Assembly: GCA_003023275.1 (NCBI GenBank)
Contig: PXTX01000083.1
Span: 1 to 34,114, forward strand
Source: Bacteroidetes bacterium SW_4_67_19
GTDB lineage: Bacteria > Bacteroidota > Rhodothermia > Rhodothermales > Salinibacteraceae
DNA length: 34,114 bases
Reading direction: 5' to 3'
Position numbers and translations under genes: made by a program. The notes beneath the pieces are model-generated. The model did not search any database and was not told the origin of the DNA. It saw nothing but the letters and a program-made list of their open reading frames with translations. Of the stretch, positions 1,950 to 33,890 are shown piece after piece; position 1 is the stretch's first letter, and each line of letters opens with the position of its first letter.

Positions 1950-2005
1950 CTGTTGGCTTTCAGCTATCAGCAGTCAGCTATCAGCTCTCGGCTATCAACT
2001 ATCAG
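1950..2005. repeat. Heptamer array: CTGTTGG CTTTCAG CTATCAG CAGTCAG CTATCAG CTCTCGG CTATCAA CTATCAG
   Basis: 8 in-phase 7-mers starting the base after the argS stop. Confidence 0.9.
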
Positions 2006-2034
2006 GTCTTCCGGCCGAAAAGCATGACCTTCGG

Positions 2035-2069
2035 CCCCTGACGGCTGACCGCTGACGGCTGACCGCTGA
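2035..2069. repeat. Heptamer array: CCCCTGA CGGCTGA CCGCTGA CGGCTGA CCGCTGA
   Basis: 5 in-phase 7-mers next to the four-helix-bundle stop codon. Confidence 0.9.
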
Positions 2070-2075
2070 ACGCTC

Positions 2076-2429
2076 CTACGCGCGAAGCTTCTTGAGAAGG
2101 CCGCTGAGCATACGCTTGACCTCCTGCGTGTGATGGGTCGCCGCACGATGCGGCTTTTCTGAAAGCATGGTCAAATCACGAGCCAGCAGCAACTGATATT
2201 CCAACTCGCTTGCCGAGCGGAGGGCCATTTGCACGAAGCGAGCGAAATCCGCGTCGCTGCCGCTTCCGCATCCTTCCGCGATGTTCGCCCCTATCGACGC
2301 AGACGAGCGCCGCATCTGACTGATCAAACCGTAGCGTTCATCGTCTGGAAAGTCGGACGTGAGTTCGTAGACGTTCAGCGTGAGACGATGCGCTTTTTTC
2401 CAGACGGAGAGCTTGCGAAAGTCTTGCAT
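2076..2429 (-). CDS. Four-helix bundle protein, S23 / 23S rRNA intervening-sequence family
   Basis: 117 aa; MQDFRKLSVWKKAHRLTLNVYELTSDFPDDERYGLISQMRRSSASIGANIAEGCG is the classic family N-terminal signature. Confidence 0.93.
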   Translation of the reverse strand: MQDFRKLSVWKKAHRLTLNVYELTSDFPDDERYGLISQMRRSSASIGANIAEGCGSGSDADFARFVQMALRSASELEYQLLLARDLTMLSEKPHRAATHHTQEVKRMLSGLLKKLRA

Positions 2430-2511
2430 GAGCGAGCGGAGCCAAAGAAAATATAGGAAACGTGCGGCATAAATAAACGAGGCAACTTGCTAAAAAGCCA
2501 ACGCTTGTTAT

Positions 2512-2553
2512 CTGTCAACTGATAGCTGATAGCTGATAGCTGACGGCTGAAAG
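2512..2553. repeat. Heptamer array: CTGTCAA CTGATAG x3 CTGACGG CTGAAAG
   Basis: 6 in-phase 7-mers; CTGATAG is the reverse complement of CTATCAG at 1950-2005. Confidence 0.9.
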
Positions 2554-2632
2554 CCCCCCCTCGCATTTCCGAAGCGCGAACGCTTACCTTTCCCAAAGCG
2601 CCGCTTTCCCGAATCGCCGCACGCAACCCGCC

Positions 2633-3508
2633 ATGGCGCTCTCCTACAGCATCCGCGAAGGGCTGGCCGGCTTCTGGCGGGCGAAGTTTGCCGCCGTCGC
2701 CGCCACGAGCGCGATGACGGTGGCGCTGGTGCTGGTGGGCCTCTTCGTGGTGGTGGGCTACCAGGCGCAGCAGGTGAGCGGGTGGTTGCGCCAGCGCGTG
2801 GGCCAGCTCAACGTGATGCTCGACGAGCAGGCCTCCGACGACGACGCGCAGCAAATCATGGAGCGCGCGCGCCTCTTGCCCGGCGTCGACGAGGTGGAGT
2901 ACGTCTCGCCCGAGGAGGCGCAGAAGCGCTTTCGCCGCGCCTTCGGGGAGGGGGCGGAGATTTACTACGAAGAGCCGTTCCTGCCGGCCTCCGTGGAGGT
3001 GCGCGTGGGGCCGACCTACGCCTCCTCCGACAGCCTGAACTCGCTCATCAGTGAAGTCAAGACGTGGGCGCGCGTCGAAGAGGTCGTCTTCAACCAGCCA
3101 CTCTTCGCGCGCGTGCAGCAAAACCTGCGTCTCATCACGTGGGGGGGCGTCTCGCTGGGCGCGCTGGTGGTGCTGGCGTCGATCTTTCTGGTGGCCAATA
3201 CCATTCGGCTGACCGTCTACGCGCGGCGCCTCTTGATTCGCACGATGAAGCTCGTCGGCGCTACCGACCGCTTCATCCGCCGTCCCTTCGTCATCGAGGG
3301 GATGCTCCAGGGCCTGATCGCCGGAGTCGTGGCGAGCGGCATCTTGTGGGGCCTCTACCAGCTAGCCGCCAGCTACGTGCCCGGGCTGGAGGCCCTCGGC
3401 GGGCTGTGGCTGGCCATCGGAGTGGTCGTGGTAAGCGGCGTGCTGCTGGGGTGGATCGGCTCGTTCTTTGCTGTGCGCCGCTTCATCAAAAACGTAGCGC
3501 TGCATTGA
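2633..3508 (+). CDS. ftsX: Cell division protein FtsX (permease)
   Basis: 291 aa, N-terminal TM, extracellular domain, C-terminal TMs with VGATDRFIRRPFVIEGMLQGLIAG motif. Confidence 0.93.
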   Translation: MALSYSIREGLAGFWRAKFAAVAATSAMTVALVLVGLFVVVGYQAQQVSGWLRQRVGQLNVMLDEQASDDDAQQIMERARLLPGVDEVEYVSPEEAQKRFRRAFGEGAEIYYEEPFLPASVEVRVGPTYASSDSLNSLISEVKTWARVEEVVFNQPLFARVQQNLRLITWGGVSLGALVVLASIFLVANTIRLTVYARRLLIRTMKLVGATDRFIRRPFVIEGMLQGLIAGVVASGILWGLYQLAASYVPGLEALGGLWLAIGVVVVSGVLLGWIGSFFAVRRFIKNVALH

Positions 3509-3538
3509 GGGTTGAAGGTCGCAGATTGAAAGTTGAAC
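3504..3538. repeat. Heptamer array: ATTGAGG GTTGAAG GTCGCAG ATTGAAA GTTGAAC
   Basis: 5 in-phase 7-mers; ftsX TGA is in the first unit. Confidence 0.8.
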
Positions 3539-3570
3539 GTTTCTCCAGTCACCGGCGGGGAAATCCCCCC

Positions 3571-3600
3571 GCACTCTCACACTCCCACCCCCTCCACGCC
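3571..3600. repeat. C-rich octamer-like array GCACTCTC ACACTCCC ACCCCCTCC ACGCC
   Basis: About 8-bp period immediately 5' of ATG 3602. Confidence 0.6.
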
Positions 3601-3601
3601 T

Positions 3602-4684
3602 ATGCCTACTCGCCTCTGCTTTGCTCTACTCGCCGCTGCTGCAGTGATCGGGGGCGCCGGGTGCAATCTCGATAGCGGCTCGGGCAGCGACGCACAGGTC
3701 GAGGTGACGCGCCAGGTGCAACGAGGCGTGACGCCGGGGGAGCGCACGCTCGCCTTCGATAGCTACAGCGGCGGCGTCACACTGCAAGACACGACCGCCT
3801 CTCAGGCGGAGCTGACGTTCGTCAAGCGCGCCCGCGCCGGAAGCAAAAAGGAGGCGCGCCGGCTCTTGAGCCGCATCCGCATCGAAGGGCGCGGCGACGA
3901 TCAGGAGTTCGCCTACGAGCTGACCTCCGGCGCCCCCGGCCGTACGAGCGTGGACGTGCGCGGTCATGCGCCGCAGAACGTGCGCCTGCGCCTGCACATG
4001 CAAAACGGCGACGCGCTCCTCTCGGGGCTGCGCGGGCCGCTCGACGTAAAAAATGAAAACGGCGACCTCCGCATCGGCGGGGCGGCGCGCGCAGTGCGGG
4101 CCGAAACGCGCAACGGCTCCATCGAGGGGGGGTTGCGCCGCCTGCCCTCCGGGGCCGAGGTGCGCCTGCGCACCGCCAACGGCGACCTGCAGCTCACCCT
4201 CCCGGCTTCCGCTTCGGCCGACATCGAGGCGCGCACCGAGGCGGGCGACATCGACCCCGGCGCTCTGACCTTCTCGGATCGCGACCTCGAATCGAGCGGG
4301 GCCGGGGCGCGCTTCGAGGGCACGCTGGGCGAGGGCGCGGCCCCGGTACGCCTACGCACCGAAAACGGCGACATTACGCTGCGCCGAGGCACGGTGCGCC
4401 GCCTGCCGGGCGTGGAAGGCGACACGACCGCACGCGACACCACGCGCCGCGACACGCTCTCTTCCGACACCACGCGCCGCGACACCGCCGGCCTGCCGGG
4501 GCCGCCGCCCGCCGGTCCGCAGCAACGCCCCCAGCAGCAACAAACGGCGCCCTACACCGACCAGCCCCCGCGCCTGCTGCGCGCCCCCGACCAGAACCGC
4601 TCGGGCCGAGACACGAACGCAGGCCCGTCGCCGGTGCCGAGCCTCCCCTCGCCGCGGGCGGACACGGCTCGCCGGCAACAGTGA
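3602..4684 (+). CDS. Putative lipoprotein with DUF4097-like repeats
   Basis: Start at ATG 3602 gives MPTRLCFALLAAAAVIGGAGC lipobox; repeated NGD/GDI beta-repeat motifs; P/Q-rich C-terminus with repeated DTTRRDT. Confidence 0.7.
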   Translation: MPTRLCFALLAAAAVIGGAGCNLDSGSGSDAQVEVTRQVQRGVTPGERTLAFDSYSGGVTLQDTTASQAELTFVKRARAGSKKEARRLLSRIRIEGRGDDQEFAYELTSGAPGRTSVDVRGHAPQNVRLRLHMQNGDALLSGLRGPLDVKNENGDLRIGGAARAVRAETRNGSIEGGLRRLPSGAEVRLRTANGDLQLTLPASASADIEARTEAGDIDPGALTFSDRDLESSGAGARFEGTLGEGAAPVRLRTENGDITLRRGTVRRLPGVEGDTTARDTTRRDTLSSDTTRRDTAGLPGPPPAGPQQRPQQQQTAPYTDQPPRLLRAPDQNRSGRDTNAGPSPVPSLPSPRADTARRQQ

Positions 4685-4839
4685 GGCCGCCGAGCGGGGG
4701 TGCGCCTGCTCTGGGAACCTCTTTCCGCACTCCCCTACTCACTGGCAAAAGGGGGAGATATTTTATCACGCATCGGTAGATAAGTCGGTCATGGGCGTTT
4801 CCACCAAAAGCAGAACGCCGCGAACCGACGAACCTTCCC

Positions 4840-4867
4840 CTTTCAACTTCCCACTTTCCACCGCTAA
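4840..4867. repeat. Heptamer array: CTTTCAA CTTCCCA CTTTCCA CCGCTAA
   Basis: 4 in-phase 7-mers just 5' of the lipase start. Confidence 0.7.
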
Positions 4868-4874
4868 CTGACGC

Positions 4875-5735
4875 ATGACGCTCGCGGAGCGCGCCGTCCG
4901 CCGTCTCACCGCCATGGACCGACATCCGCAACCGCCGCTTCTGCGGCTCCGGCATCCGCTCGTGTTGATGCACGGCTTCGGCGTGCTGGCGGCCTTCCGG
5001 CGCGGGGGCATGCTTCACGAGCAGGCCATGCACCTGCGCAAGCGCGGCGTCTGGGCCTTCGCCCCCAACGTGTCGCCCTACCACACCGTCACCGCTCGGG
5101 CCGACCAGTGGGAAGCGCGTTTCGAGCGCATCCTCCGCGAAACCGACGCCGAGCAGTTCCACCTCGTGGCCCACTCGATGGGCGGTCTCGACGCGCGCTT
5201 CCTCGTCAGCCGGCGCGGATGGGGCGAGCGCGTCGCCACGCTCACGACCGTCTCGACGCCGCACCGGGGCGCCACCGCCGCCGATTACGTCATGGAGCAG
5301 CCCGAACGCCTGCGCCGCCTCGTCGCCGACGCCGCCGAGTGGCTCGGGCGTCAGACTCTGCCCGACGACGACGCCTCCGACTTTTTGCGCGCCGTGCGCG
5401 AGATGCGCCCCGCCTACGTCCAGAACGAGTTCAACCCCGCCACCCCCGACCATCCGTCCGTGCAGTACCGCTCCTATGCCGGGCGCGCGGGCCGGGGCAC
5501 CGACGTGGCGATCAGTCCGTTCTTTCGCCTGCTCAACGCCGTCATCTACGAGCGCGAAGGCGTCAACGACGGATACGTCGCTACCGAGAGCGCGCGCTGG
5601 GGCGACTTCCGCGGCCTCCTCGACGGCGACCACGCCCGCCAGGTGGGCCTCGCCGCCGGCGGCCTGCGCCGCGCCCCCGACGCCGACGCCTTTTACCGAC
5701 GCCTCCCCGAAGACCTCGCCGACGAAGGGGGGTGA
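4875..5735 (+). CDS. Alpha/beta hydrolase, triacylglycerol-lipase-like
   Basis: HPLVLMHGFG oxyanion motif, AHSMGG nucleophile elbow, STPHRG. Confidence 0.85.
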   Translation: MTLAERAVRRLTAMDRHPQPPLLRLRHPLVLMHGFGVLAAFRRGGMLHEQAMHLRKRGVWAFAPNVSPYHTVTARADQWEARFERILRETDAEQFHLVAHSMGGLDARFLVSRRGWGERVATLTTVSTPHRGATAADYVMEQPERLRRLVADAAEWLGRQTLPDDDASDFLRAVREMRPAYVQNEFNPATPDHPSVQYRSYAGRAGRGTDVAISPFFRLLNAVIYEREGVNDGYVATESARWGDFRGLLDGDHARQVGLAAGGLRRAPDADAFYRRLPEDLADEGG

Positions 5736-5851
5736 GCACGGCGAGCTGTGGAAGGGGGACGACCGACGGCGGTTTCTCAATCCCGCCGGATGTGTTTTTT
5801 CTTTTAGCGTTCATCGGCCCGGCGTGAAGGCGGCTTCCGCGAAGAGACACG

Positions 5852-6619
5852 ATGGCTTCAATGAGCGACTTCGCTTTCTACAGCACGTCCGCCCTCCCGC
5901 TCCCCCGTGCCCTCGCGCTCCTTCTGGCGGTGCTACTGGCCGCCTGCGGCGGGGGCGAGCGTTCCGCGTCTTCACCGCAGGCGCTCGACGCTTCTGCCGA
6001 AACGACTTCCGCGAGCGGGCGCGCCTCGGGGCAGGCCGCCGGCGCGTCCGCACGCCCCGCTCCCGGCGACACCGCATCGGCGGCGGCGAGCACGTCCGAG
6101 CTGCACGTGAACCGGACCGAGACGTTCTACACCGTGACGGGGCGCACCGAGCAGGCCCTCCTGCGCGAGCTGGCACAGCACGGCCCCCGCAGCGACGGCG
6201 CCCGCCATTTCGGACGCACCTCCTGGACAGCGCGCTGGGAAATCGTCTACGAGCAGGCCTCCCGCCCCGCCCGCGAAGCGCCCTGCCGGATACGCCGCGC
6301 CGACGTGTACCTCGACGTGGAGGTGACGATGCCGCGCTGGAACGCGCCCTCAAATGCCCCCGCCGCGCTTCGGCGCGACTGGAGCAGCTTCCTCGACGCG
6401 CTGGCCTTCCACGAACGCGAACACCAGGAAAGCATCATCAGCGCCGGGCGTCGCGTGGCGCGCGCGCTCGAGGACCTGACGGCCGCCTCTTGCTCCGCGC
6501 TCGAAGAAAAAGCCGACACGCAGGCGCGCTCCATCATCGAAGAGGCGCGGCGCTACAACCGCCGCTTCGACGAACGCACCCGCCACGGACGCACCCAGGG
6601 CGCCCGCTGGCCGCAGTGA
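5852..6619 (+). CDS. Putative lipoprotein with DUF922-like (HExxH-type) domain
   Basis: LLAVLLAACGGG lipobox; YTVTGRTEQAL...FHEREHQESI; start codon uncertain. Confidence 0.7.
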   Translation: MASMSDFAFYSTSALPLPRALALLLAVLLAACGGGERSASSPQALDASAETTSASGRASGQAAGASARPAPGDTASAAASTSELHVNRTETFYTVTGRTEQALLRELAQHGPRSDGARHFGRTSWTARWEIVYEQASRPAREAPCRIRRADVYLDVEVTMPRWNAPSNAPAALRRDWSSFLDALAFHEREHQESIISAGRRVARALEDLTAASCSALEEKADTQARSIIEEARRYNRRFDERTRHGRTQGARWPQ

Positions 6620-6763
6620 GTTCGAGGAGGCGGGGGCGCGGGAGGGCGGGCGTACTTTGTTGCGACACGTTGGCGCCACGCCAGCGGAGTTTCGTTCCCT
6701 TCGCTGCTTTCCGCTTCTTCCCGCCCCGACATTCTCTCCCCCACTCCCGCCGCCCCCCAGACC

Positions 6764-8107: not shown

Positions 8108-8257
8108 AGCATTCGCGGCGACTGCCCCCTTTGCCGACTCCATCTCATCGACGGCGCCCGACACGATCCACGCGCCGGCTCCGCTTTCGCTTCCGGCTCC
8201 GCTTTCGTTTTGAGCGGCGGACGTTCGATCAACGGAGCGCCTTTTGCCCAAATAACA

Positions 8258-8287: not shown

Positions 8288-8316
8288 GGTCGTGGGTAAA
8301 ATGTCATTCGAGCGCT

Positions 8317-12034: not shown

Positions 12035-14083
12035 TCATCCCTCCTCCTCGAAGCGCTCTGCGAGTTTCTCAGGGGAGAGGCGCAGGACGGTCGGCTGGCC
12101 GGCAGGGTCGGCGTACGGCATTTCACACCGGAAAAGCATGCGCACGAGCGCCCGCGCTTCCGACGGCGAAAGCTGCGCGTCCGGGCCCACGGCGCCCCGG
12201 CGGGCGAGGCTCTTGGCCAGGCGGTCGGAGCGCGCGTCGCCGCGAGCGGTTCCCAGCGTGCGGTATTCGTCCAGCACGTCCTCCAGCAGCGCCTGCGCGT
12301 CGCCGCGCGCCCCGGCGGGCCGCCCCTGCACCGCCACGGTGCGCCCCGAGAAGCGCTTCAGGTCGAAGCCCATGCGCCGCAGGTCCGGCAGCAGGTCGTC
12401 GAACAGCTCCACGTCGGCGGCGGGCAGCTCGATGGTCTCGGGAAAAAGCACCTGCTGCGACGGGTGGTCGGTCTCGTCCTCGACGTGGCGGCGCGCCCGT
12501 TCGTAGAGCACGCGCCGGTGCGCCGCCGGGGCGTCGATCACGAGCAGACGCCCCTCCTGCGGCACCGCCACGAAGCGCCCCCCCACCGGCCAGCACGGCG
12601 GCTCGTCCGACGGCGGTTCCCCCGAGGCGGCTTCGTCCGAGGCGGCTTCGTCCGAGGCGGCCTGGCCCGAAGCGTCCGGCGCCCCGTTCGCTTCGCCCGC
12701 GTCGTCTTCGTCGCCTTCCTCGAGCGGCGCATAGAGACGCGCCGACAGATCCCCCGCCGACGCATCAGACGATGTCCGGCCCGGCGCCGGCCCGCTCTGG
12801 CGCTGCGAACGAGGCGCCGCGTCGCGGTCTCCCGAAGCTCCCGTCCGGGACTCGCCAAAGTCAGCGCGCGGCGGCGTGCCGCGGGCGCCCGCTGCGTTGC
12901 CGCTGGGCCCGGCTGCCCCATCGTCTGCGCCGGAAAAATCTGCGCGGGAAAACCCGGTGTCGTCGACGTCGGTGCTGGGGAAGCGCCCTCCCTCGAACTG
13001 CGGCGCATCGAGTTCGCCCTCGGAGAGCGCCTCGCGCACGGCGGAGCGCAGCAGACCGTAGACGCCGCTTTTGTCCTCGAACTTGACCTCCGCCTTGGTC
13101 GGGTGCACGTTTACGTCCACGCGCGCCGGGTCGAGCGAAAGGAAAAGCGCGAAAAACGGAAAATCTCCGTCATCGAGGAGCGCGCCGTAGGCCGCCTTGA
13201 CTGCGTGCGCGAGATAGCGGTTCTCCACGTAGCGCCCGTTGACGAAGAGAAACTGCTCGCGGCGACTGCGACGGCTCTGGCCCGGCGCCCCGGCCACGCC
13301 GCGCACCGACAGGTAGCTCGCCTCGTCGCTCACGCGGCGCAATTCCTCGGCGCGGTCTTCCCCCAGCAGGTCCCCGATGCGCCGGCGCAGCGCTTCGAAG
13401 AAGTCGCCCTCCGCCTGCGCCACGCGGTACACCTCGTTGTCGTTGTGCACGAGGCGAAAGGCCACCCCGGGGTGCGCGAGCGCCTGCTGCTGGAAGGTCT
13501 CGACGAGGTGCTTGAACTCGGTGGCGTCGGTTTTGAGGAAGCTGCGGCGCGCGGGCACGTTGAAAAAGAGATTGCGCACCGCCACCGATGTGCCCGGCGG
13601 CGTGGCGCAGGGCGCGGCCTCCGTCTGCTCACCGCCTTCGATGCGCACGCGCATCCCCGTCGCGTCGCTGGGGCGCTTCGTCTTGAGATCCACCTGCGCG
13701 ACCGCTCCGATGGACGCGAGCGCCTCCCCGCGAAAGCCCAGCGTCTGGATGCGCTGGAGGTCGCCGGCAGCGCGCACCTTGCTGGTGGCGTGACGCTGAA
13801 AGCAGCGCTCGGCGTCGGCCGGTCCCATGCCACAGCCGTCGTCGACGACCTGCACGAGCGCGCGCCCGGCTTTTTTGACGATCAGCTCGACGTCTTCGGC
13901 CCCGGCGTCGAGCGCGTTTTCGAGCAGTTCTTTCGCTACGGACGCCGGGCGCTGCACCACCTCGCCGGCGGCGATTTTGTTGGCCAGCGTCTCGGGCATG
14001 ACCGAGATGAGGCCCTCGTCGGCCGCGTTCGACGGTTGCCGCTGGTCGGCGGCGGGTTCGGTCTGGGACGCCGGTTCGGGCAA
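12035..14083 (-). CDS. mutL: DNA mismatch repair protein MutL
   Basis: ANKIAAGEVVQRPASVAKELLENALDAGA, DDGCGM, TLGFRGEALASI, NLFFNVPARRSFLK; TTG start at 14083; acidic linker with 15-bp tandem repeats at 12622-12666. Confidence 0.95.
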   Translation of the reverse strand: MPEPASQTEPAADQRQPSNAADEGLISVMPETLANKIAAGEVVQRPASVAKELLENALDAGAEDVELIVKKAGRALVQVVDDGCGMGPADAERCFQRHATSKVRAAGDLQRIQTLGFRGEALASIGAVAQVDLKTKRPSDATGMRVRIEGGEQTEAAPCATPPGTSVAVRNLFFNVPARRSFLKTDATEFKHLVETFQQQALAHPGVAFRLVHNDNEVYRVAQAEGDFFEALRRRIGDLLGEDRAEELRRVSDEASYLSVRGVAGAPGQSRRSRREQFLFVNGRYVENRYLAHAVKAAYGALLDDGDFPFFALFLSLDPARVDVNVHPTKAEVKFEDKSGVYGLLRSAVREALSEGELDAPQFEGGRFPSTDVDDTGFSRADFSGADDGAAGPSGNAAGARGTPPRADFGESRTGASGDRDAAPRSQRQSGPAPGRTSSDASAGDLSARLYAPLEEGDEDDAGEANGAPDASGQAASDEAASDEAASGEPPSDEPPCWPVGGRFVAVPQEGRLLVIDAPAAHRRVLYERARRHVEDETDHPSQQVLFPETIELPAADVELFDDLLPDLRRMGFDLKRFSGRTVAVQGRPAGARGDAQALLEDVLDEYRTLGTARGDARSDRLAKSLARRGAVGPDAQLSPSEARALVRMLFRCEMPYADPAGQPTVLRLSPEKLAERFEEEG

Positions 14084-14084: not shown

Positions 14085-14161
14085 GCGTATTGCGTATTGC
14101 GTGTTGCGTATTGCGTGAAACGTCACACGTGCCACATTTCACGTTCCACGCGACACGTGCC
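14085..14161. repeat. Heptamer array, 11 units: GCGTATT x2 GCGTGTT GCGTATT GCGTGAA ACGTCAC ACGTGCC ACATTTC ACGTTCC ACGCGAC ACGTGCC
   Basis: Unbroken 7-bp phase over 77 bp between mutL start and the 71-aa ORF stop. Confidence 0.92.
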
Positions 14162-14166
14162 GCGCC

Positions 14167-14456: not shown

Positions 14457-14484
14457 GCGTGATGCATGATTCGTGTTGCGCGAG
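14457..14484. repeat. Heptamer array: GCGTGAT GCATGAT TCGTGTT GCGCGAG
   Basis: 4 in-phase 7-mers upstream of the 71-aa ORF. Confidence 0.75.
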
Positions 14485-14580
14485 GTACTGTTTTACGGAA
14501 GCGGAAAGCATTCAAGCGCCACTACGTTCCGAATGGGGTCTGCCGGTAGAAGAAAGCAGACCGCGTTCGGCCCAGCGTCA

Positions 14581-14608
14581 TCACGAATCACGCATCACGA
14601 GTCACGAA
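14581..14608. repeat. Heptamer array: TCACGAA TCACGCA TCACGAG TCACGAA
   Basis: 4 in-phase 7-mers; cdsA stop lies in the last unit. Confidence 0.85.
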
Positions 14609-20511: not shown

Positions 20512-20550
20512 ATGACGCATCACGCACGAATTACGCATCACGCAACACGC
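20512..20550. repeat. Heptamer array: ATGACGC ATCACGC (ACGA) ATTACGC ATCACGC AACACGC
   Basis: 5 units with one 4-nt interruption; stop of CDS 20538-21035 inside a unit. Confidence 0.85.
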
Positions 20551-21038: not shown

Positions 21039-21080
21039 ATTCGCGGTTTCGATTTGGAGGTTGCGGGTTTCGGATTGCGG
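21039..21080. repeat. Heptamer array: ATTCGCG GTTTCGA TTTGGAG GTTGCGG GTTTCGG ATTGCGG
   Basis: 6 in-phase degenerate 7-mers between nadA and CDS 20538-21035. Confidence 0.7.
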
Positions 21081-21130
21081 AGTTTTTAGCGCAGGCGGTC
21101 GAGGGACAACTCGAAACCGCGGCGAAGCCG

Positions 21131-22545: not shown

Positions 22546-23046
22546 ATGAATGGACACGTCCTCGTGCTCAACCAGGACTATAGCGCGCTGACCGTGTGCA
22601 GCGTCGAGCGCGCCGTCGTCTTGATGCACTTGCAGAAGGTGCATCTCGTGGAGGCGGTCCCTGGAAAAGAAGTGCGTTCCCCGAGCGTAGAGATCCCGTG
22701 GCCCAGCATCGTGCGGCTCAAGGCGTACGTGAGCGTGCCCTACAAGCGGGTCATGCTCTCGCGCAAGAACGTGCTGCGCCGCGACCGCCACACCTGCCAG
22801 TACTGCGGCTCGGGCAAGCGCCTGACCATCGACCACATCCATCCCAAGTCGCGCGGGGGGGAGGACTCCTGGGAGAACCTGGTGGCCGCCTGCGTGCCCT
22901 GCAACAACCGCAAGGGCGACTCGACCCCCGAGGAGGCGGGCATGGAACTGGCGCGCGAGCCGTTTCGCCCCAGCCACGTCATGTTCATCCGCGACTTCGT
23001 CGGCACCGTCGACGAGGCGTGGAAGCCGTACCTGTTTCTCGCCTGA
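22546..23046 (+). CDS. HNH endonuclease
   Basis: CQYCGSGKRLTIDHIHPKSRGGEDSWENLVAACVPCNNRKGD. Confidence 0.93.
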   Translation: MNGHVLVLNQDYSALTVCSVERAVVLMHLQKVHLVEAVPGKEVRSPSVEIPWPSIVRLKAYVSVPYKRVMLSRKNVLRRDRHTCQYCGSGKRLTIDHIHPKSRGGEDSWENLVAACVPCNNRKGDSTPEEAGMELAREPFRPSHVMFIRDFVGTVDEAWKPYLFLA

Positions 23047-25662: not shown

Positions 25663-25700
25663 GAGGATCGTCCAAGAAGGGAGGCAGGCTCTGCGAAGAT

Positions 25701-26947: not shown

Positions 26948-27022
26948 AGGAGCGTGGGAGAGCGGGAGCTCTTTTAGCGAGGCGAACAATTTTGCATTGC
27001 TTTGTACGTCTCGCCCGGAGAA

Positions 27023-27050
27023 ACTTTCAACCTGCAACTTTCAACTCACC
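27023..27050. repeat. Heptamer array: ACTTTCA ACCTGCA ACTTTCA ACTCACC
   Basis: 4 in-phase 7-mers; DDAH-like CDS stop in last unit. Confidence 0.8.
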
Positions 27051-27885
27051 AGAACATCAGCTTCATGCAGAAGACCGACCCGCCGGCCTTGAGGAACTCG
27101 CCGGTTTCCAGTTCGACGGGCGTGAAGCCGGCGGCGGTGAGTTGTTCGAGGGCCACCTCGCAGCCGCGCTGGATGAGGACGTGCTCCCCGTCGGGGCAGT
27201 GCGCGTTGCAGGCCAGCTTTTCGCGCGCTTCGACGGCGGGCACTTCGATGGTGTGTTCGAAGAGGCGCTGGATGAGCGCCCGCCCGTCGTCGGTGAAGGC
27301 GCCGGGGTAGACGAGCGCGGTGTCTTCTTCGAGCGGGCAGAAGCAGGTGTCGAGGTGGTAGAAGTCGTCGTCGACCAGCTCCAGCAGCACCACCGGCGCG
27401 CCGGTCATTTCCGAAACCGCATCGTAGACGGCGGGGGCGGTGCGAACGCCGTGTCCGCCCCACAGCAGGCGCCGTCCCGGGTGCCAGATCGCGTCGCCCA
27501 TGCCTTCGAACGAGCCTTCGATGGCGTCGGACAGCTCACGCACGTCGTGGCCGTGCTCGCTGAAGAAGCCGGCGAAGTAGGGCACCTCTTCGCGGCGCTC
27601 CTCGGCGTGCATGCGGCCGAGGACGACGCCGCGTTGGTCGTTTTGCGGATCGTAGTAGGGAAGCGTCTGGTTGGCGCAGAAGACCATGTCGGGCAGGCCC
27701 GCCACGCCGTCGAGCAGGTGCACGTCCAGCCCCAGCGCGTCGTAGGTCTCGCGCACGGCCTGCCACTGGCGCAGCGCTTCGGTCTTGTCGACCGTGCCGG
27801 TCCGGCCTTCCATGTGCGGGTTGATGACGTACGCGACGTCGAAGTAGTCCGGCGTGGTCATCAGCACCCGACCGGGGCGCTCCAT
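27046..27885 (-). CDS. Dimethylarginine dimethylaminohydrolase-like amidinotransferase
   Basis: DMVFCANQ, FEGMGDAIW, DFYHLDTCFCPL, ACNAHCPDGEHVLIQRGC, GEFLKAGGSVFCMKL. Confidence 0.88.
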   Translation of the reverse strand: MERPGRVLMTTPDYFDVAYVINPHMEGRTGTVDKTEALRQWQAVRETYDALGLDVHLLDGVAGLPDMVFCANQTLPYYDPQNDQRGVVLGRMHAEERREEVPYFAGFFSEHGHDVRELSDAIEGSFEGMGDAIWHPGRRLLWGGHGVRTAPAVYDAVSEMTGAPVVLLELVDDDFYHLDTCFCPLEEDTALVYPGAFTDDGRALIQRLFEHTIEVPAVEAREKLACNAHCPDGEHVLIQRGCEVALEQLTAAGFTPVELETGEFLKAGGSVFCMKLMFW

Positions 27886-28039
27886 CGCCGGACGGTGGGT
27901 GAGGTCGAAGTCGAGCGCAGAAGGAGTGCGGTAGAGCACGGAGCGGGGGCGCGAGGCGGCAAGCGGAGAGAAGGCGAGACGGGAAAACAAGCGCTTCTCC
28001 GGGGCGCCTGTTCCCGTGCCGCGGCCACCGGTTTTGAGG

Positions 28040-29107
28040 TCACTGCGCGCCGTCGAGCGGGAGAGCGAACCCGACGCGGACGGCGTGATCTCCAGCCTCT
28101 TTAATGTCGAGGCTTTCGAGGATCTGGCGTTTTCGGGAAGAGCGCCGGTCGTTCGACCGGCCGGCCACGGAGGCGAGTCCGTCGAGCACCATTCGCAGGC
28201 GCGATGGGACGACATCATCGGCCCCCGACCGGCCGGCCGCGGAGACGAGTCCTTCGAGCACCTCGCGCAGGTCGGCGGGGGCGGCGCCGTCGCGCGTGTA
28301 GAGAAACACCTCGCCCTCGACTACGCGGTCGCTGACCGAGACGGCGCCGGCGGTATTGCGGACGACTTGCTGGACGCGCCGAGCGTTCGCGTCCTGTCCG
28401 CTCGGGCCGCCCGGCATGCCGCCCAGCACGCCGCGCGTCACGAACCACGTGCTCGCGCGTCCCCGCACCCGGTCGGCCAGACGCATGAGGCGGTCGCTGT
28501 CACCGGCGGAGTTCGTGCCCGCCTCCCGCCGGTCGAGCATCCGGCGCACGCCGGCGGAGGTGGAAAGCAGCATCAGTTCGTCGGCGGTGAGGGCGAACGC
28601 GTGGGAACGGCCTTCGCCGCCACGCGCAAGGCGGTAGAGCGTCGCTCCGCGATGGGTGGTCGTGTCAAAACGGCTGCTCCCCGGTTCGCCGGCGAGTTGC
28701 TTTCGGAGGCGGGCGCGCTCGAAGTCGGCGGCGACGACCAACTGCGGCGGTTCGTCGCCCTTCGGCGCTGCGAAGTACACCGTGCGCACGTCTTCGGCCG
28801 GGGTGAAACCGGCTGCTTCGAGAAAGCCCTTCAGGCGCTGGGCGCCCGTTTCATCGGAGGCGTTGCGCGTGGCGCGTGTGCTGTCGCGGTCGAAGAGGCC
28901 GCTTCGCCGGAGCGCCCGCGCGTCGACCACGGTCAGCAGGCGCGCTTCGGCGGGCAGCGCGGCGAGTGCGCTCTTGGCCTCGGCCCCGAGCGGAGCGGCC
29001 GTGTCCTCGGCGGGCGCGTCGTCGGCGGGCGTTTCGCAGCCGGCCGCGAGGACGGCGACGCAGAAAACGAGTGCAGCAGTGCGCAGGCGTTTCGAAGCGG
29101 GAAGCAT
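28040..29107 (-). CDS. Hypothetical lipoprotein
   Basis: MLPASKRLRTAALVFCVAVLAAGC lipobox; C-terminal 24-aa imperfect duplication. Confidence 0.7.
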   Translation of the reverse strand: MLPASKRLRTAALVFCVAVLAAGCETPADDAPAEDTAAPLGAEAKSALAALPAEARLLTVVDARALRRSGLFDRDSTRATRNASDETGAQRLKGFLEAAGFTPAEDVRTVYFAAPKGDEPPQLVVAADFERARLRKQLAGEPGSSRFDTTTHRGATLYRLARGGEGRSHAFALTADELMLLSTSAGVRRMLDRREAGTNSAGDSDRLMRLADRVRGRASTWFVTRGVLGGMPGGPSGQDANARRVQQVVRNTAGAVSVSDRVVEGEVFLYTRDGAAPADLREVLEGLVSAAGRSGADDVVPSRLRMVLDGLASVAGRSNDRRSSRKRQILESLDIKEAGDHAVRVGFALPLDGAQ

Positions 29108-29220
29108 GGAAGCAAGGGAAAGGAAGAGGAGCCGGCGTTTCTGGAAAGCCTCCTGCGGAAGAAAAGCGTCGAGCGTTACCGTTTGCCCGAGCAAAAGCAA
29201 TCCGGGAGCACGTCATCCGC

Positions 29221-29248
29221 ATCACGTATTACGCAACACGCATCATAC
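29221..29248. repeat. Heptamer array: ATCACGT ATTACGC AACACGC ATCATAC
   Basis: 4 in-phase 7-mers ending at the permease stop. Confidence 0.8.
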
Positions 29249-30177
29249 TAAAAGTCGCGGCGGCTGAACAGGAAGCCAGCGCTCAGGTAGAGCAGCGCGC
29301 CAACCGCAGCGGTGGAGGCGACCGCGTTCCACCGCGTGACCGGGTCGCCGTGCAGGAGCTGCGCGGCCACGCCGCCGTAGATCGGGGAGCGAAACGCCAG
29401 GATGATCGAGACGAAGATGACGCCGTAGGTCACGATCAGCGCCAGCGCGGGGCTTTCGGTCCACACCGTCAGCAGCGCCACCACGCCGTAGAGCACGGCG
29501 AACATGCCCACCAGCACGAGGATGGAGAAGAGAAACTTGGCGTTCCACACCCCGAGCTTGATCGACAAAATCAGCCAGACGGCGCCGAAGAGGTACGTCG
29601 CCAGCGTGAGCACCATCAAAAGCACGCCGAGGACGTGCCCGCTGAAGAGCTTTGCGCGGCTCATCGGCTTGGAGAGCAACAGGTCCACGTGTCCGCTTTC
29701 GACCATGCGCGCAAAGAGCGGCGCGGCCGAGAAGAGGCCCAGCAGAATGACGATCCAGTACGCCGCCTGCGAGACGACCGTCTGCGCCGCGACGGTGAAC
29801 TGCTCGAAGCTGAGCCCCAGCGCCCCCCTGCCGCTGCTTTGCTGCTGCGTGGGACGGCTGCGTGGACCGCTCATCTCGGGGTCCACCGTCGCCGTGTCGG
29901 TCGCCGCGGCGGCCGTATCAGCGAAGACGGACGTATCGGCGGGCGCGGCGTCGGCGCCGGGGGCAGGCCCCGCGGTGCTCGAAGCGGGCGCGCCGGAGGC
30001 GGCCACGTCGCTGCCGAAGAGGCGCAGCATCGAGATGCCGCCTTCGACCTCTTCGACGTTCATGAACAGCATCAGCACCACCCACACGAGCGTGCTCACG
30101 ACGAAAAGGCCGACGACGATCTTCTTGGCCCACAGCTCGCGGAACGTGAGGTACAGCAGGCCGCGGAGTTTGTGCAT
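29248..30177 (-). CDS. ABC-2 type transporter permease
   Basis: MHKLRGLLYLTFRELWAKKIVVGLFV; ...SAAPLFARMVESGHVDLLLSKPMSRAKLFSGHVLG; six TM-like segments; next to ATPase. Confidence 0.88.
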   Translation of the reverse strand: MHKLRGLLYLTFRELWAKKIVVGLFVVSTLVWVVLMLFMNVEEVEGGISMLRLFGSDVAASGAPASSTAGPAPGADAAPADTSVFADTAAAATDTATVDPEMSGPRSRPTQQQSSGRGALGLSFEQFTVAAQTVVSQAAYWIVILLGLFSAAPLFARMVESGHVDLLLSKPMSRAKLFSGHVLGVLLMVLTLATYLFGAVWLILSIKLGVWNAKFLFSILVLVGMFAVLYGVVALLTVWTESPALALIVTYGVIFVSIILAFRSPIYGGVAAQLLHGDPVTRWNAVASTAAVGALLYLSAGFLFSRRDF

Positions 30178-30184
30178 GTGTTGG

Positions 30185-30232
30185 GTGCGAGAGTGCGGGG
30201 GCGTGGGGGAGCGGGAGCGTTTGGGACGCTGG
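30185..30232. repeat. Octamer array: GTGCGAGA GTGCGGGG GCGTGGGG GAGCGGGA GCGTTTGG GACGCTGG
   Basis: 8-bp phase 5' of the permease start (C-rich on coding strand). Confidence 0.65.
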
Positions 30233-30243
30233 CGGGCTGAAAA

Positions 30244-30264
30244 ACCTTCAACTTTCAATCTTCA
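30244..30264. repeat. Heptamer array: ACCTTCA ACTTTCA ATCTTCA
   Basis: 3 in-phase 7-mers spanning the ABC ATPase stop codon. Confidence 0.8.
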
Positions 30265-31253
30265 ACTGTTTCCGAAACGACGTCGATGAAGTAGTCTTCG
30301 AGCGTCTGGCGCTTCGGCGTGATCGACTCCAGTTCGACGCCGCCGGAGCGCAGGCGGTCGATCACGTCGTTGAGGTGAGCACGGCTGTCGGCGCGCACGC
30401 GGTAGCGTTTCGTTTCGCCGGAAGACGCCTCGCCGTTGCTGCGGGTCGCTTCGACGGGCGAAAGCGCCTCGCCCGGGAACGCGTCGAGCAGGTCGGGCGG
30501 GACGGGGGTGGCGCGCAGGTCGTAGGTGTGCTCCTCTTGCGTGAGGTCGTCGATGGAGCCGGTGCGCACCAGCTCGCCGCCGTTGAGGATGGCCATGCGC
30601 GAGCAGACCTGTTCGACTTCGCTGAGGAGGTGGGAGTTCAGGAAGACAGTCGTGCCCTCGTCGCGCAGCTCCACCAGCAGGTCGCGGATCCGGCGGCGGC
30701 CCACCGGGTCCACGCCGTCGGTCGGCTCGTCGAGAAAGAGGAGCCGCGGGCGCGAGAGGAGCGCCTGCGCCAGCCCCGTGCGCTGGAGCATGCCCTTCGA
30801 GAAGGTCTCGATCTTCGCGTCCGCGGCGTCGGCCAGGTTCACCTTGTCCAGCAGCTCCGGGATGCGCTCCTTGCGCGCGGCGGGCGGCACGCCGCCGAGC
30901 GCGCCGTAGGTGTCGAGCATCCGGCGCGCGGTGAAGAAGCCCGGAAAGCGGTGGTTTTCCGGCAGATAGCCGACCGGCTCGCGCGCGTCGGGGTCGGCCG
31001 CGGCCGTGCCGAAGAGCCGCGCCTCGCCGCCGCTGGGGTGCACGATGCCCAGCAGGCTCTTGACGAGCGTCGTCTTGCCCGCCCCGTTGGGGCCGAGCAG
31101 GCCGAAGATCTCGCCGGGCGCCACCTCCAGCGAGACGCCCTTGAGCGCCTCGACGGTGCGCTTCTCGAGCAGGCCGCTGCGGTAGGTCTTGCGGAGGTTG
31201 CTCACAGCGACGGCGGGAGCATCAGCGGCGGCGGCGGGCACGTCGTCGGGCAT
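30255..31253 (-). CDS. ABC transporter ATP-binding protein
   Basis: GLLGPNGAGKTTLVKSL Walker A, FSKGMLQRTGLAQALLSRPRLLFLDEPTDGVDPVGRR. Confidence 0.97.
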   Translation of the reverse strand: MPDDVPAAAADAPAVAVSNLRKTYRSGLLEKRTVEALKGVSLEVAPGEIFGLLGPNGAGKTTLVKSLLGIVHPSGGEARLFGTAAADPDAREPVGYLPENHRFPGFFTARRMLDTYGALGGVPPAARKERIPELLDKVNLADAADAKIETFSKGMLQRTGLAQALLSRPRLLFLDEPTDGVDPVGRRRIRDLLVELRDEGTTVFLNSHLLSEVEQVCSRMAILNGGELVRTGSIDDLTQEEHTYDLRATPVPPDLLDAFPGEALSPVEATRSNGEASSGETKRYRVRADSRAHLNDVIDRLRSGGVELESITPKRQTLEDYFIDVVSETVED

Positions 31254-31323
31254 GGACTTCGCGGTGAGAGGCAGCGTTTGCGTTCGGGAGTACGCGCCAG
31301 ACGGAGAAATCGTTACGCCGGGA

Positions 31324-31380
31324 CCAATCGACATTCGTCATTCGGCCATCCGCCAATCGAACGTCGTCAATCGACATTCT
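31324..31380. repeat. Heptamer array: CCAATCG ACATTCG TCATTCG GCCATCCG CCAATCG AACGTCG TCAATCG ACATTCT
   Basis: 8 units, one of 8 bp; stop of the MscS remnant inside a unit. Confidence 0.85.
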
Positions 31381-31516
31381 CCGAGGGGCGTTTCGCGTCG
31401 GCGGCGCGCGGGTCGCGGGGGCGTTCGGGACGGTTTGCCGCGCCGTCGTCCTCTCGTGAGTAGAGCACGCGGCGCGGGAACGGGATTTCGACGCCCGCTT
31501 CCTCGAAGGCCTCCAT
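31367..31516 (-). pseudogene. C-terminal remnant of an MscS-type mechanosensitive channel
   Basis: MEAFEEAGVEIPFPRRVLYSREDD... resembles the MscS C-terminal GIEIPFPQR motif; ATG overlaps pgk TGA. Confidence 0.6.
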
Positions 31517-32739
31517 CAGCGTTCCGAGAGCGCCTCCACCCCCGGCAGCGTTTCGCCTTCGAGGAAGCCGAGCATCGCGCCGCCGCCGGTGGAGAGGTGG
31601 CTGATGCGGTCGGCGAAGCCCATCTGCGAGAGCGCCGCCGCCGAGTCGCCGCCGCCGGCCACGGTGTAGGCGCCCGCGTCGGTCGCTTCGGCCACGGCTT
31701 CGGCCACCGCGCGGGTGCCCTTCGCAAACGGCTCGGCTTCGAAGACGCCCATCGGCCCGTTCCAGGCGACCGTCTGGGCGTGGCGGATTTCTTCCTGGTA
31801 GCGCCCGGCCGTCTCGGGGCCGATGTCCACGCCCAGCAGGCCGCCGGGCACGTCGCCGTCAGTGATGTGGTGGTCGGCACTCGCGTCGAGGTCGTCGGCG
31901 ACGACGTGGTCGGTGGGAAGCAAAAGCCGGTCGCCGGCGTCGTCGAGCAGGCGCTCGGCATCGCCCGTGCGGTCGTCCTCGACGAGCGAGTCGCCCACGC
32001 CTCGGCCCTGGGCCTTCAGAAAGGTGTAGCTCATCGCCCCGCCGATCAGGAGCGTGTCGGCCACATCGAGCAGGCGTTCGATCACGCCGAGCTTGTCGGA
32101 GACCTTCGCCCCGCCGAGCGCGGCGACGAACGGGCGTTCGGGGGCGCCCGAGAGGAGCCGGCCGAGCGCGTCGAGTTCGCGCTCCACGAGGCGGCCCATC
32201 GCGGCGAGCTTGCCGTCGGACTGCATCACGCGGGCCGCGCCGACGGTGGAGGCGTGCGCGCGGTGCACCGCCCCGAAGGCGTCGCCGACGAACACGTCGC
32301 CCAGCGCGGCGAGCGCGGCGGCGAAGTCGTCGTCGTTGGCCTTTTCGCCGGGGTCGAAGCGCGTGTTTTCCAGCAGCACCACGCCGCCGTCGGTGAGCTG
32401 CTCGATGACGGCCTCGGCCTTGTTCCCGACGGTCTCTTCGCAGAAGTGCACCGGGCGTCCCAGCAGCTCCTCGAAGCGTTCGGCCACGGGACGCAGGCTC
32501 AGGTCCCCCTCGCGCTCGCCGCCGGGCCGGCCGAGGTGGCTCATCAACACGGCCTTCGCGCCGGTCTGGGTGATCGCTTCGATGGTCGGCAGCGCCGCGC
32601 GCAGGCGCAAATCGTCGCCCACGCGATGCTGCTCGCCGTCGCCCGCGTCTTCGAGCGGCACGTTGAAGTCCACGCGCACCAGCGCGCGCTTCCCTTCGGT
32701 GAGGGCGTCGGCAGGGAGGTCGTCGAGGGTGAGTTTCAT
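31516..32739 (-). CDS. pgk: Phosphoglycerate kinase
   Basis: RVDFNVPLEDA, LMSHLGRPGG, LENTRFDPGE, GGAKVSDKLGVIERLL, STGGGAMLGFLEGETLPGVEAL. Confidence 0.97.
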   Translation of the reverse strand: MKLTLDDLPADALTEGKRALVRVDFNVPLEDAGDGEQHRVGDDLRLRAALPTIEAITQTGAKAVLMSHLGRPGGEREGDLSLRPVAERFEELLGRPVHFCEETVGNKAEAVIEQLTDGGVVLLENTRFDPGEKANDDDFAAALAALGDVFVGDAFGAVHRAHASTVGAARVMQSDGKLAAMGRLVERELDALGRLLSGAPERPFVAALGGAKVSDKLGVIERLLDVADTLLIGGAMSYTFLKAQGRGVGDSLVEDDRTGDAERLLDDAGDRLLLPTDHVVADDLDASADHHITDGDVPGGLLGVDIGPETAGRYQEEIRHAQTVAWNGPMGVFEAEPFAKGTRAVAEAVAEATDAGAYTVAGGGDSAAALSQMGFADRISHLSTGGGAMLGFLEGETLPGVEALSER

Positions 32740-32749
32740 TTAGGCATGA

Positions 32750-32813
32750 AGGTTTGTAGGTATGGAGGTATGGACGTCCACACGTTCAAACGTCCACACA
32801 TTCAAACTCACGA
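32750..32813. repeat. Octamer array: AGGTTTGT AGGTATGG x2 ACGTCCAC ACGTTCAA ACGTCCAC ACATTCAA ACTCACGA
   Basis: 8 in-phase 8-mers filling the gap-pgk spacer and containing the gap stop. Confidence 0.85.
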
Positions 32814-33776
32814 AGCGAGCTTGCGAGCGAGGTCCACCATGCGGTTGGCGAAGCCCCACTCGTTGTCGTACCAGCCGAGGACTTTGACCTGGCGGCCCTG
32901 CGTCATCGTCGAGGGGGCGTCGAAGATGCAGGAGTGCGGGTTGTGCACGACGTCTGTCGAGACGATGGGCGTCTCGTTGTATTCGAGCACGCCGCTCATG
33001 GGGCCGTCGGCGTTTTCCCGGAAGGCGGCGTTCACCTCGTCGGCGCTGGCCTCCGTGCCCAGATCGACGACCAGGTCGGTGATCGAGCCGGCGGGGATGG
33101 GCACGCGCATGGCCATGCCGTCGAGCTTGCCGTCCAGTTCGGGCACGACCAGGCCGATGGCCTGCGCGGCGCCGGTGGAGGTCGGGATGATGCTTTCGGC
33201 AGCGGCGCGGGCGCGGCGCAGGTCCTTCGTGCCGGGGCCGTCGAGGATGTTCTGGCTGGCGGTGTAGGCGTGCACGGTCGTCATCACGCCGCTCTCGATG
33301 CCGAAGGCGTCGTTGAGGGTTTTCACCAGCGGGGCCAGCGAGTTGGTCGTGCAGCTTGCGTTGGAGACGATGTCTTCGTCCCCGCTCAGGTCGTCGTCGT
33401 TGACGCCCAGCACGAAGGTAGGCACGTCGTCGCTCTTGGCCGGGGCGCTGATGATGACCTTGTCCGCGCCGGCGTCGAGGTGGGCGCTGGCCTTCTCGCG
33501 CGTACGAAAGAGGCCCGTCGATTCGACCACCACGTCCGCGCCGAGGTCGCCCCACGGCAGGTTCGCGGGGTCTTTTTCGCTGAAGACGCGAAAGTCCTCA
33601 CCGTCGATGGTGATCGTGTCCTCGCCGGAGTAGGAGACGTCGCCGTCGTAGGTGCCCTGCGCGGTGTCGTACTGGAAGAGATGGAAGTCTTCGCCATTGC
33701 TTTCGCGTTCGAGAATGGAGCGCAGGACGAGGCGTCCGATGCGCCCGAAGCCGTTGATGCCGAGAGTGAGAGCCAT
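32808..33776 (-). CDS. gap: Glyceraldehyde-3-phosphate dehydrogenase, apparent small N-terminal deletion
   Basis: LGINGFGRIGRLVLRS, SNASCTTNSLAPLVK, GWYDNEWGFANRM; canonical VVAINDLxDxxTLA segment absent. Confidence 0.95.
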   Translation of the reverse strand: MALTLGINGFGRIGRLVLRSILERESNGEDFHLFQYDTAQGTYDGDVSYSGEDTITIDGEDFRVFSEKDPANLPWGDLGADVVVESTGLFRTREKASAHLDAGADKVIISAPAKSDDVPTFVLGVNDDDLSGDEDIVSNASCTTNSLAPLVKTLNDAFGIESGVMTTVHAYTASQNILDGPGTKDLRRARAAAESIIPTSTGAAQAIGLVVPELDGKLDGMAMRVPIPAGSITDLVVDLGTEASADEVNAAFRENADGPMSGVLEYNETPIVSTDVVHNPHSCIFDAPSTMTQGRQVKVLGWYDNEWGFANRMVDLARKLAS

Positions 33777-33781
33777 TGTCT

Positions 33782-33821
33782 GGGTACGGGGATGGGAGAG
33801 TGCGGGGTCCGAGGTTGGGGC
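33782..33821. repeat. Octamer-like array: GGGTACGG GGATGGGA GAGTGCGG GGTCCGAG GTTGGGGC
   Basis: 8-bp phase 5' of gap start. Confidence 0.5.
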
Positions 33822-33855
33822 CGCCGGCGTGCGTTGCGCGTTTCTTTCCAAGAAA

Positions 33856-33890
33856 GCTGAAGGCGGACGGCTGAAAGCCAACAGCTAAAA
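33856..33890. repeat. Heptamer array: GCTGAAG GCGGACG GCTGAAA GCCAACA GCTAAAA
   Basis: 5 in-phase 7-mers, same GCTGA core as 2035-2069 and 2512-2553. Confidence 0.75.

Follow-up and report, generated by a model that had tools for sequence, protein, structure and literature searches.

The tandem arrays found in many spacers of the window (the whole stretch of 34,114 nucleotides that was analysed) are probably, at roughly two chances in three, the arms, arranged as inverted repeats, of intergenic elements whose layout is similar to that of the intervening sequences (IVS) of 23S rRNA. The complete form, about 450-650 bp long, consists of a small gene, that of S23/IVP (the "23S rRNA intervening sequence" protein), with a heptad or octad array on either side, one of them G-rich and the other its C-rich complement, and it lies between neighbouring, often co-transcribed genes: argS and ftsX here, leuC and leuD in Salinibacter-like relatives, the RNR beta and alpha genes, and cas6 and cas4 or cmr2 and cmr3 in cyanobacterial plasmids. 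Most of the copies in the window are best read as short forms of about 60-200 bp that carry no ORF. Since arrays of this kind surround S23 genes in several phyla, the puzzling bacterial heptamer repeats may well be what such a little-noticed genetic element has for arms or leaves behind, and our literature search found no paper linking heptamer arrays with S23.

Spacer arrays of fixed period and non-random polarity

A first-pass annotation of the window had described degenerate intergenic arrays with a period of 7 or 8 bp, and in-register heptamers or octamers are indeed present at every coordinate that it named (Table 1), the weakest being 3504 (score 7.5) and 20512 (score 7.0), while at 14457, 29221, 30244 and 33856 the array is seen in the sequence with a lag-7 score below 7. 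At a loose threshold, 17 spacers of the window carry a lag-7 array against 3.0 in dinucleotide shuffles (shuffle maximum 6); this becomes 11 against 0.9 at score 7, and 4 against 0.2 at score 9. The autocorrelation analysis that the annotation had proposed was made on 745 kb of the source genome, that of a salt-loving bacterium, comprising 577 spacers (145 kb) and 600 kb of coding sequence. The spacers hold 122 lag-7 arrays versus 3.2 in shuffles and 53 lag-8 arrays versus 2.2, the multiples of the period follow (121 at lag 14, 39 at lag 16), and the comparison lags 4, 5, 10 and 11 give only 4-8 arrays, whereas the coding sequence, with a lag-7 count of 21 in 600 kb, shows no excess.

The shuffle comparisons, in the window and in the 745 kb, rule out chance or composition as the source of the arrays. 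The arrays also recur in the related genome G001 and in other genomes of the order, that is, in independent assemblies that include single-contig genomes, so that an assembly artefact is ruled out as well. The annotation had rightly set this combination of fixed period and degenerate units apart from a simple microsatellite: 196 arrays yield 116 consensus units, the commonest of which, ATGCGTG, accounts for 20 arrays. A conserved core with variable letters in each unit was considered and rejected, the heterogeneity between columns being only mild (0.93 vs 0.78, lag 7). Stop codons in three frames were dropped as the cause of the period because units such as GTGCGGGA and GATTGGC contain no stop triplet, and telomere-like addition of G-rich ends was dropped because the units vary among the spacers of one genome.

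Table 1. Arrays and S23/IVP gene of the window, with positions counted from its first letter.
Feature	Position	Strand	Evidence or remark
Outer left heptad arm of the argS-ftsX element, GCTATCA units	1956..2004	+	lag-7 score 17; 6 bp past argS stop
Inner heptad array, CTGACGG/CTGACCG, adjoining S23 stop codon	2038..2074	+	lag-7 score 20
S23/IVP four-helix-bundle gene, PF05635	2076..2429	-	E=4e-38; solved relatives 2GSC, 2RLD
Right heptad arm, CTGATAG units, reverse complement of 1956-2004	2506..2554	+	lag-7 score 20.5
Heptad array GTTGAAG at ftsX stop	3505..3541	+	lag-7 score 7.5
C-rich heptad array ACTTTC ahead of next gene	4840..4861	+	lag-7 score 7.5
Heptad palindrome filling spacer: GCGTATT units, then complementary ACGTnCC-type, one register	14085..14165	+	lag-7 score 21.5
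GCGTGAT-type heptad stretch, weaker than the arm at 14579..14607	14457-14480		
C-rich heptad arm ATCACGA/ATCACGC	14579..14607	+	lag-7 score 13.5
C-rich heptad array GCATCAC	20517..20550	+	TRF 20525-20550; lag-7 score 7
G-rich heptad array GGTTGCG	21059..21081	+	lag-7 score 8.5
C-rich heptad arm AACTTTC	27022..27046	+	lag-7 score 8
C-rich heptad array GCATCAC/GTATTAC/GCAACAC	29218..29244	+	sequence
G-rich octad array GTGCGAGA (30185-30215) and C-rich heptad array AACCTTC (30243-30266), same spacer	30185..30266	+	lag-8 score 8; TRF
Heptad array CAATCGA	31325..31355	+	lag-7 score 9
Octad palindrome filling spacer	about 32747..32807	+	lag-8 score 15.5

In the spacers of the source genome, the arrays lie close against the gene ends, and the strand that reads from the gene into the spacer is the G-rich one at both edges (62:7 at the left edge, 60:8 at the right edge), independently of the orientation of the gene. 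The annotation had reported that the same cores occur in both orientations; several unit families do so, but it had missed that the orientation is not random. As the G-rich units point inward at both edges, the spacers tend to be inverted repeats, and reverse-complement units are often found on opposite edges of one spacer. Such arrays are not tandem repeats that stand independently of one another.

Association of the arrays with S23 genes

In the argS-ftsX spacer, the arrays bracket the S23/IVP gene, and the right arm matches the left one in inverted orientation with a score of 27 (locus L154). The protein encoded there belongs to PF05635, and against the bAvd family PF22296 (Avd of diversity-generating retroelements) it reaches only 26.4 bits, under the cut-off of 40. 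Inverted arms flank 3/3 of the other S23 genes read in the source genome, and S23 elements elsewhere are located between protein genes too. Across 56 S23 loci of the phylum, the 300-bp flanks carry lag-7 arrays on 37/112 sides and lag-8 arrays on 18/112, against 0-1 of 112 at control lags, and distant flanks of these loci carry them on 5/111 and 0/111, respectively. An inverted match between left and right flanks with a score of at least 14 is found at 43/56 loci, versus 8% in cross-locus comparisons. The arms are also present at 15/17 plasmid S23 loci, which are mostly cyanobacterial, with Azospirillum and Gemmatirosa in addition, whereas ParE genes taken as controls have flanking arrays in 2/50 and 0/50 cases. 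S23, which is not a known transposase, is the sole gene constantly inside the arms. The mechanism and function of the arrays had been called unknown in the first-pass annotation; since the S23 link holds across phyla, and the group at 1950-2554 brackets such a gene, the arrays gain a likely identity.

The S23 association extends to whole genomes: within the order, S23-bearing genomes show the lag-7 excess and S23-free ones do not. The period of the arrays follows the S23 clade, with 5 changes on the S23 protein tree versus 13.5 when shuffled (0/500). A strict dictation of unit sequence by S23 sequence was rejected, the correlation being weak (Mantel r=0.14). The units of S23 arms reappear as ORF-less arrays in their own genome and hardly elsewhere: the unit GGTTCAG gives 258 hits in genome G006 and 149 in G012, GGGGACT gives 63 hits in G036 and at most 5 elsewhere, and the S23c gene with its GCGTnnn arrays is a further case. 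Two observations tell against the main reading: the source genome has 215 CGTGATG hits, yet S23c was not found in this MAG, which is 62% complete and in which leuD was likewise not found, and three other genomes (G015, G023 and G029) lack S23c although they carry arrays of this type. Sorting the abundance of CGTGATG versus CGTATTG by S23c arm type did not give a clean division, G018 being the exception.

At orthologous sites, the comparison of filled and empty leuC-leuD spacers shows that S23 and its arms are there or missing as one block, in spacers too diverged for the exact element junctions to be placed in a check for target duplication. The argS-ftsX site of relatives holds S23 in either orientation, or the arms alone, as in a sister species (L023). 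The units turn over fast in orthologous spacers: the G001 counterpart of 27022..27046 has an octad GTGCGGGA array instead of AACTTTC heptads. In the G001 ortholog of the spacer at about 32747..32807, the octad palindrome is missing and the two genes lie directly against each other.

These sites bear on the reading in which another process made the arrays before S23 arrived, S23 being a passenger that homes to existing hairpins, where it is inserted or lost. Such a passenger would fit the lone arms of the sister species and the fact that array spacers far outnumber S23 genes, and an S23 gene inserted among genome-specific unit families would share their units; we nevertheless consider it unlikely, as the empty leuC-leuD sites have no arms, the S23-free genomes no array excess, and the period follows the S23 tree.

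Proposed mechanism and remaining alternatives

We tentatively propose, with the odds rather against us, that S23/IVP is the active agent of these transposase-less spreading elements, a pentameric ring that would read 7-/8-nt units, set the period and propagate cognate arms in trans. Many of the heptamer repeats known across bacteria (STRR, TAACTGA, GGGAATC) would then be accounted for. The ring would bind the repeats with about one subunit per unit, this binding would fix the period, and S23 would maintain or spread its cognate units. Of the 158 array-bearing spacers that were examined, only 2 lie next to an S23 gene, which tells against the main reading unless S23 acts in trans. Slippage by unit steps and copying from arm to arm may renew the array sequence. 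By analogy with the rRNA IVS, transcripts that cross the hairpin might be cut by RNase III, which would make insertion between ORFs tolerable.

The RNA level also offers a quite unlikely alternative, namely that the elements are selected themselves as terminators, RNase III sites or translational leaders (the regulator-binding idea of MacGregor), S23 being one client. Arrays that follow stop codons are G-rich and those that precede start codons are C-rich, arm complementarity is seen in codirectional and convergent spacers and was looked for in divergent ones, where none was found, and array spacers fold better than other spacers (z -1.27 vs -0.52), all of which would suit such a role; the divergent spacers also tell against the main reading. 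Sense-strand G.U mismatches in the arms are, however, not in excess over A.C ones (81 vs 97), the antisense strand of array spacers folds as well as the sense strand, and the Rfam scan of the window gave no match, rRNA included. The mismatch and folding tests thus support neither selection on RNA pairing nor the RNA step. Ordinary slippage during replication, favouring steps of 7-8 nt (for which PMC4679880 cites the polymerase-footprint idea of Mrazek 2007), in neutral spacers where S23 genes merely end up, would agree with the fast turnover of units and with the fact that in many genomes no long simple repeat is more common than the heptamer, but it is highly doubtful, as it leaves unexplained the outward G-rich polarity and the complementary arms, and as the S23-free relatives, the ParE controls and the period that follows the S23 clade all stand against it.

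Two old puzzles, why heptanucleotide repeats are so abundant in bacterial spacers and what the widespread S23 or "four helix bundle" protein does, appear to be one. If so, a common unannotated class of elements shapes the spacers of several phyla and sits inside operons, and S23 becomes a candidate repeat-binding protein that is directly testable.

Relation to known repeats and elements

The rRNA IVS of Coxiella and Leptospira have, like the elements described here, a PF05635 ORF between complementary arms and a sporadic distribution. ORF-less IVS occur in other bacteria (Salmonella). The IVS lie in rRNA, whereas the present elements lie between protein genes, in several copies per genome, and have long degenerate arrays on both sides. 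In particular, the 23S rRNA IVS of Coxiella is an element of about 430 nt in which tandem GACAGAT heptamers, in strain-variable number, directly precede the S23p ORF (PMC4990558). If the two puzzles are one, the intervening sequences of 23S rRNA are just one setting in which a wider family of elements occurs.

The STRRs of filamentous cyanobacteria had been named in the first-pass annotation as the nearest analogue, an apt choice for intergenic tandem heptamers (122 versus 3.2), and the cyanobacterial plasmid S23 loci do carry heptamer arms. STRRs are, however, described as a few fixed sequences with no S23 link, whereas here the units are diverse and come with octads and inverted arms. The TAACTGA repeats of Beggiatoaceae, some cyanobacteria and Bacteroidetes are intergenic direct heptamer repeats adjoining start codons, for which a mobile repeat-binding protein was offered as one possibility (PMC4679880). 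They consist of one exact heptamer, related heptamers being rare, instead of many degenerate families, and neither S23 nor an inverted-arm layout is reported for them (PMC4679880). GGGAATC in Xanthomonas and GGGGA(C/T)T in Nostoc are G-rich intergenic heptamers whose arrays vary in length between relatives and form some inverted pairs; they were read as G-quadruplex sequences, with no S23 link reported (PMC4692102). The S23 structure 2GSC also derives from Xanthomonas.

RAYT/REPIN and MITE-type systems combine one protein-coding copy with many short palindromic intergenic copies per genome. Unlike them, the present elements have no recognised transposase inside their arms, and their short copies share unit and period rather than full sequence; like them, they are present or absent at orthologous sites, as at leuC-leuD and at the octad palindrome that G001 lacks.

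Period-7 and period-8 arrays in the spacers

The first-pass annotation had claimed that the spacers carry tandem arrays with a period of 7 or 8, and this is upheld in the source genome, a 1.86 Mb MAG (62% complete) of which the window is one contig. Judged by the relatives of its argS, it belongs to the Rhodothermia, close to Salinibacter, and among named records Bacteroidetes bacterium QS_8_68_28 is the nearest. Over 61 stretches of this genome (745 kb), genes were called with a simple method based on codon usage, and self-matches were scored at each lag. The spacers hold 122 arrays at lag 7 and 53 at lag 8, versus 3.2 and 2.2 after dinucleotide shuffling; the multiples 14 and 16 give 121 and 39, the control lags 4, 5, 10 and 11 give 4-8 each, and coding DNA has no excess at lag 7 or 8. 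Within the window, a lag-7 array is found in 17 spacers (3.0 by chance) with a loose threshold and in 11 (0.9 by chance) with a stricter one.

Features of the window (TRF, Tandem Repeats Finder; G001, congener)
Feature	Position	Strand	Remark
Period-7 array	1956		TRF
Period-7 array	2038		TRF
Period-7 array	2519		TRF
Period-7 array	4835		TRF
Period-7 array	14085		TRF
Period-7 array	14580		TRF
Period-7 array	20525		TRF
Period-7 array	27022		TRF
Period-7 array	30243		TRF
Period-8 array	near 32742		TRF
Arrays enclosing a gene	1956-2554	gene on -	PF05635, 23S rRNA-intervening-sequence protein, E=4e-38
Palindromic array	14085-14165
Palindromic array	32747-32807
Octad spacer	32740-32807		68 bp; missing from G001, where the flanking genes abut
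Period-15 array	12597-12674		TRF; in frame with coding DNA, unlike spacer heptads
HNH endonuclease gene	22546-23046	+	PF01844, E=3e-16
Protein with dimethylarginine dimethylaminohydrolase-like domain	27046-28218	-	PF19420

The unit families are many (116 consensus units in 196 arrays of the source genome), and include the heptamers GCGTGAT, GTTGAAG, GATTGGC, GTGGACG, TCAGCnn and GGTTTCG and the octamers GTGCGGGA, GTGTTnnn and GTnTGGAC. The arrays closely adjoin the gene ends, often in contact with the stop or start codon, and the strand that leads out of the gene into the spacer is G-rich at both spacer edges: G exceeds C in 62 lag-7 arrays of the left half versus 7, and C exceeds G in 60 of the right half versus 8, a tendency seen alike in ++, --, +- and -+ spacers. 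Reverse-complement edges within one spacer are common, and the unit register can continue uninterrupted across the palindrome centre, examples being 14085-14165 and 32747-32807. Arm complementarity with a score of at least 12 reaches 14.7% in convergent spacers (1.2% across spacers) and 9.6% in codirectional ones (1.5%); the divergent spacers of the source genome, unlike these, have arrays near the starts but no excess complementarity of their edges.

These arrays turn over quickly between relatives. Among 44 orthologous spacers compared with G001 (median protein identity 76%), 24 have an array in neither genome, 13 in the source genome only, 2 in G001 only and 5 in both; the unit family is kept in 1 of these 5, and the period differs in some.

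S23 genes and their inverted arms

The gene enclosed by arrays in the window encodes an S23 protein. Five chains are present in each of its solved relatives, 2GSC and 2RLD, and the Xanthomonas structure has been described as a homopentameric torus (PMC4990558). Of the 198 genomes sampled in the phylum, 157 encode PF05635, and the copy number reaches 16. We fetched 60 S23 loci, of which 56 were usable (112 sides of 300 bp). Arrays were found on 37 sides at lag 7 and 18 at lag 8, versus 0-1 at control lags 4-6, 9-11 and 13, while flanks 700-1000 bp away gave 5/111 and 0/111, and ParE toxin genes, used as a control in the same phylum sample, 2/50 and 0/50 sides. An array of lag 7, 8, 14 or 16 lies on at least one side in 43 of the 56 loci and on both in 19. 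An inverted match between the two flanks of a locus (score of at least 14) is seen at 43/56 loci, versus 8% of cross-locus pairs, and a direct one at 11/56. The G-rich 5' arm rule is again observed (36:4 and 41:6), largely independently of the S23 strand.

A protein search of plasmids returned S23 mostly from cyanobacteria, and arrays with a period of 7 or 8 bp accompany S23 at 15 of the 17 plasmid loci read, in most cases forming inverted arms; Azospirillum, with heptads, and Gemmatirosa, with octads, are among these. At four cyanobacterial plasmid loci S23 is operon-internal, between cas6 and cas4 (twice), cmr2 and cmr3, and the ribonucleotide reductase beta and alpha genes.

S23 presence, array period and insertion sites

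Seven S23-free genomes of the order have 4 lag-7 arrays in 51 kb of spacer, which is the control level (2-6), and nine S23-bearing ones 21 in 71 kb, with 1-5 at control lags. When the period of the flanking arrays (7 or 8) is mapped on an S23 protein tree with 61 members, it requires 5 changes, versus 13.5 with shuffled labels (0/500); three host families hold both period types, so the host alone does not fix the period.

Units from S23 arms recur in many arrays of their own genome and in hardly any of others. GGTTCAG, an arm unit in genomes G006 and G012, has 258 and 149 matches there, 31 in genome G036 and 0-4 in the rest; GGGGACT, a G036 arm unit picked ahead of its search, has 63 in G036 and 0-7 elsewhere. 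The S23c subclade has arms of GCGTnnn type, and (CGTGATG)n is commoner in genomes with S23c than without (Mann-Whitney p=1e-4; within family p=0.001). In genome G035, with S23c arms of GCGTAGT, CGTGATG has 0 matches and the reversed control pattern, readable as GCGTAGT, has 54. Exceptions are genomes G029, G023 and G015, and the source genome, with 215 matches and S23c not found (leuD was not found either in this 62% complete MAG). Overall, unit similarity correlates weakly with S23 identity (Mantel r=0.14, p=0.008).

In nine relatives, leuC-leuD holds S23c with GCGTnnn-type arms, in a spacer of 556-717 bp at the sites measured from both ends, and by the same measure the spacer is 77 and 85 bp, without arms or S23, in G020 and G023. 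One relative has S23c displaced by one spacer, to leuD-ilvD, which in others has ORF-less arrays, and another has it reversed. In argS-ftsX, S23 is on the minus strand in the window and on the plus strand in a relative that is probably Roseithermus, with TCAGCnn arms in both, and QS_8_68_28 has arms only. These filled, empty, shifted, reversed and arms-only sites indicate that S23 and its arms behave like one unit, open to gain, loss, reduction and flipping. In three genomes, the traced leuC frame terminates within a heptad array (cgtgaaacgtga), which may thus have taken the place of the original stop codon.

Possible mechanism and known systems

The association, the polarity, the tie of period to S23 clade, the recurrence of cognate units and the presence/absence pattern are demonstrated. 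That S23 drives the arrays is inferred, and S23 might instead home to pre-existing hairpins. In the proposed mechanism, S23 pentamers would bind the arms one unit at a time (arms have a median of 4.4 units in both period classes, a figure biased by detection limits) and would help to keep or spread cognate units, which slippage and arm-to-arm copying would renew. By analogy with rRNA IVS, RNase III could cut the interval out of transcripts. This RNA step is so far without support, as the sense strand has similar numbers of G.U (81) and A.C (97) mismatches and antisense folding is no worse than sense.

Among long simple repeats, heptamers are already reported to be the commonest in many genomes, and TAACTGA and GGGAATC repeats are likewise on record (PMC4679880, PMC4692102). 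Targeted searches of the open-access literature found no report that connects S23 genes with heptamer arrays located outside rRNA, and this link is likely, though not certainly, new. In the Coxiella 23S IVS, two to three tandem heptamers, whose number varies between strains, lie immediately ahead of S23p (PMC4990558). The rRNA IVS are sited in rRNA and the arrays described here lie outside it, so that they are strictly not rRNA IVS, but IVS-like.
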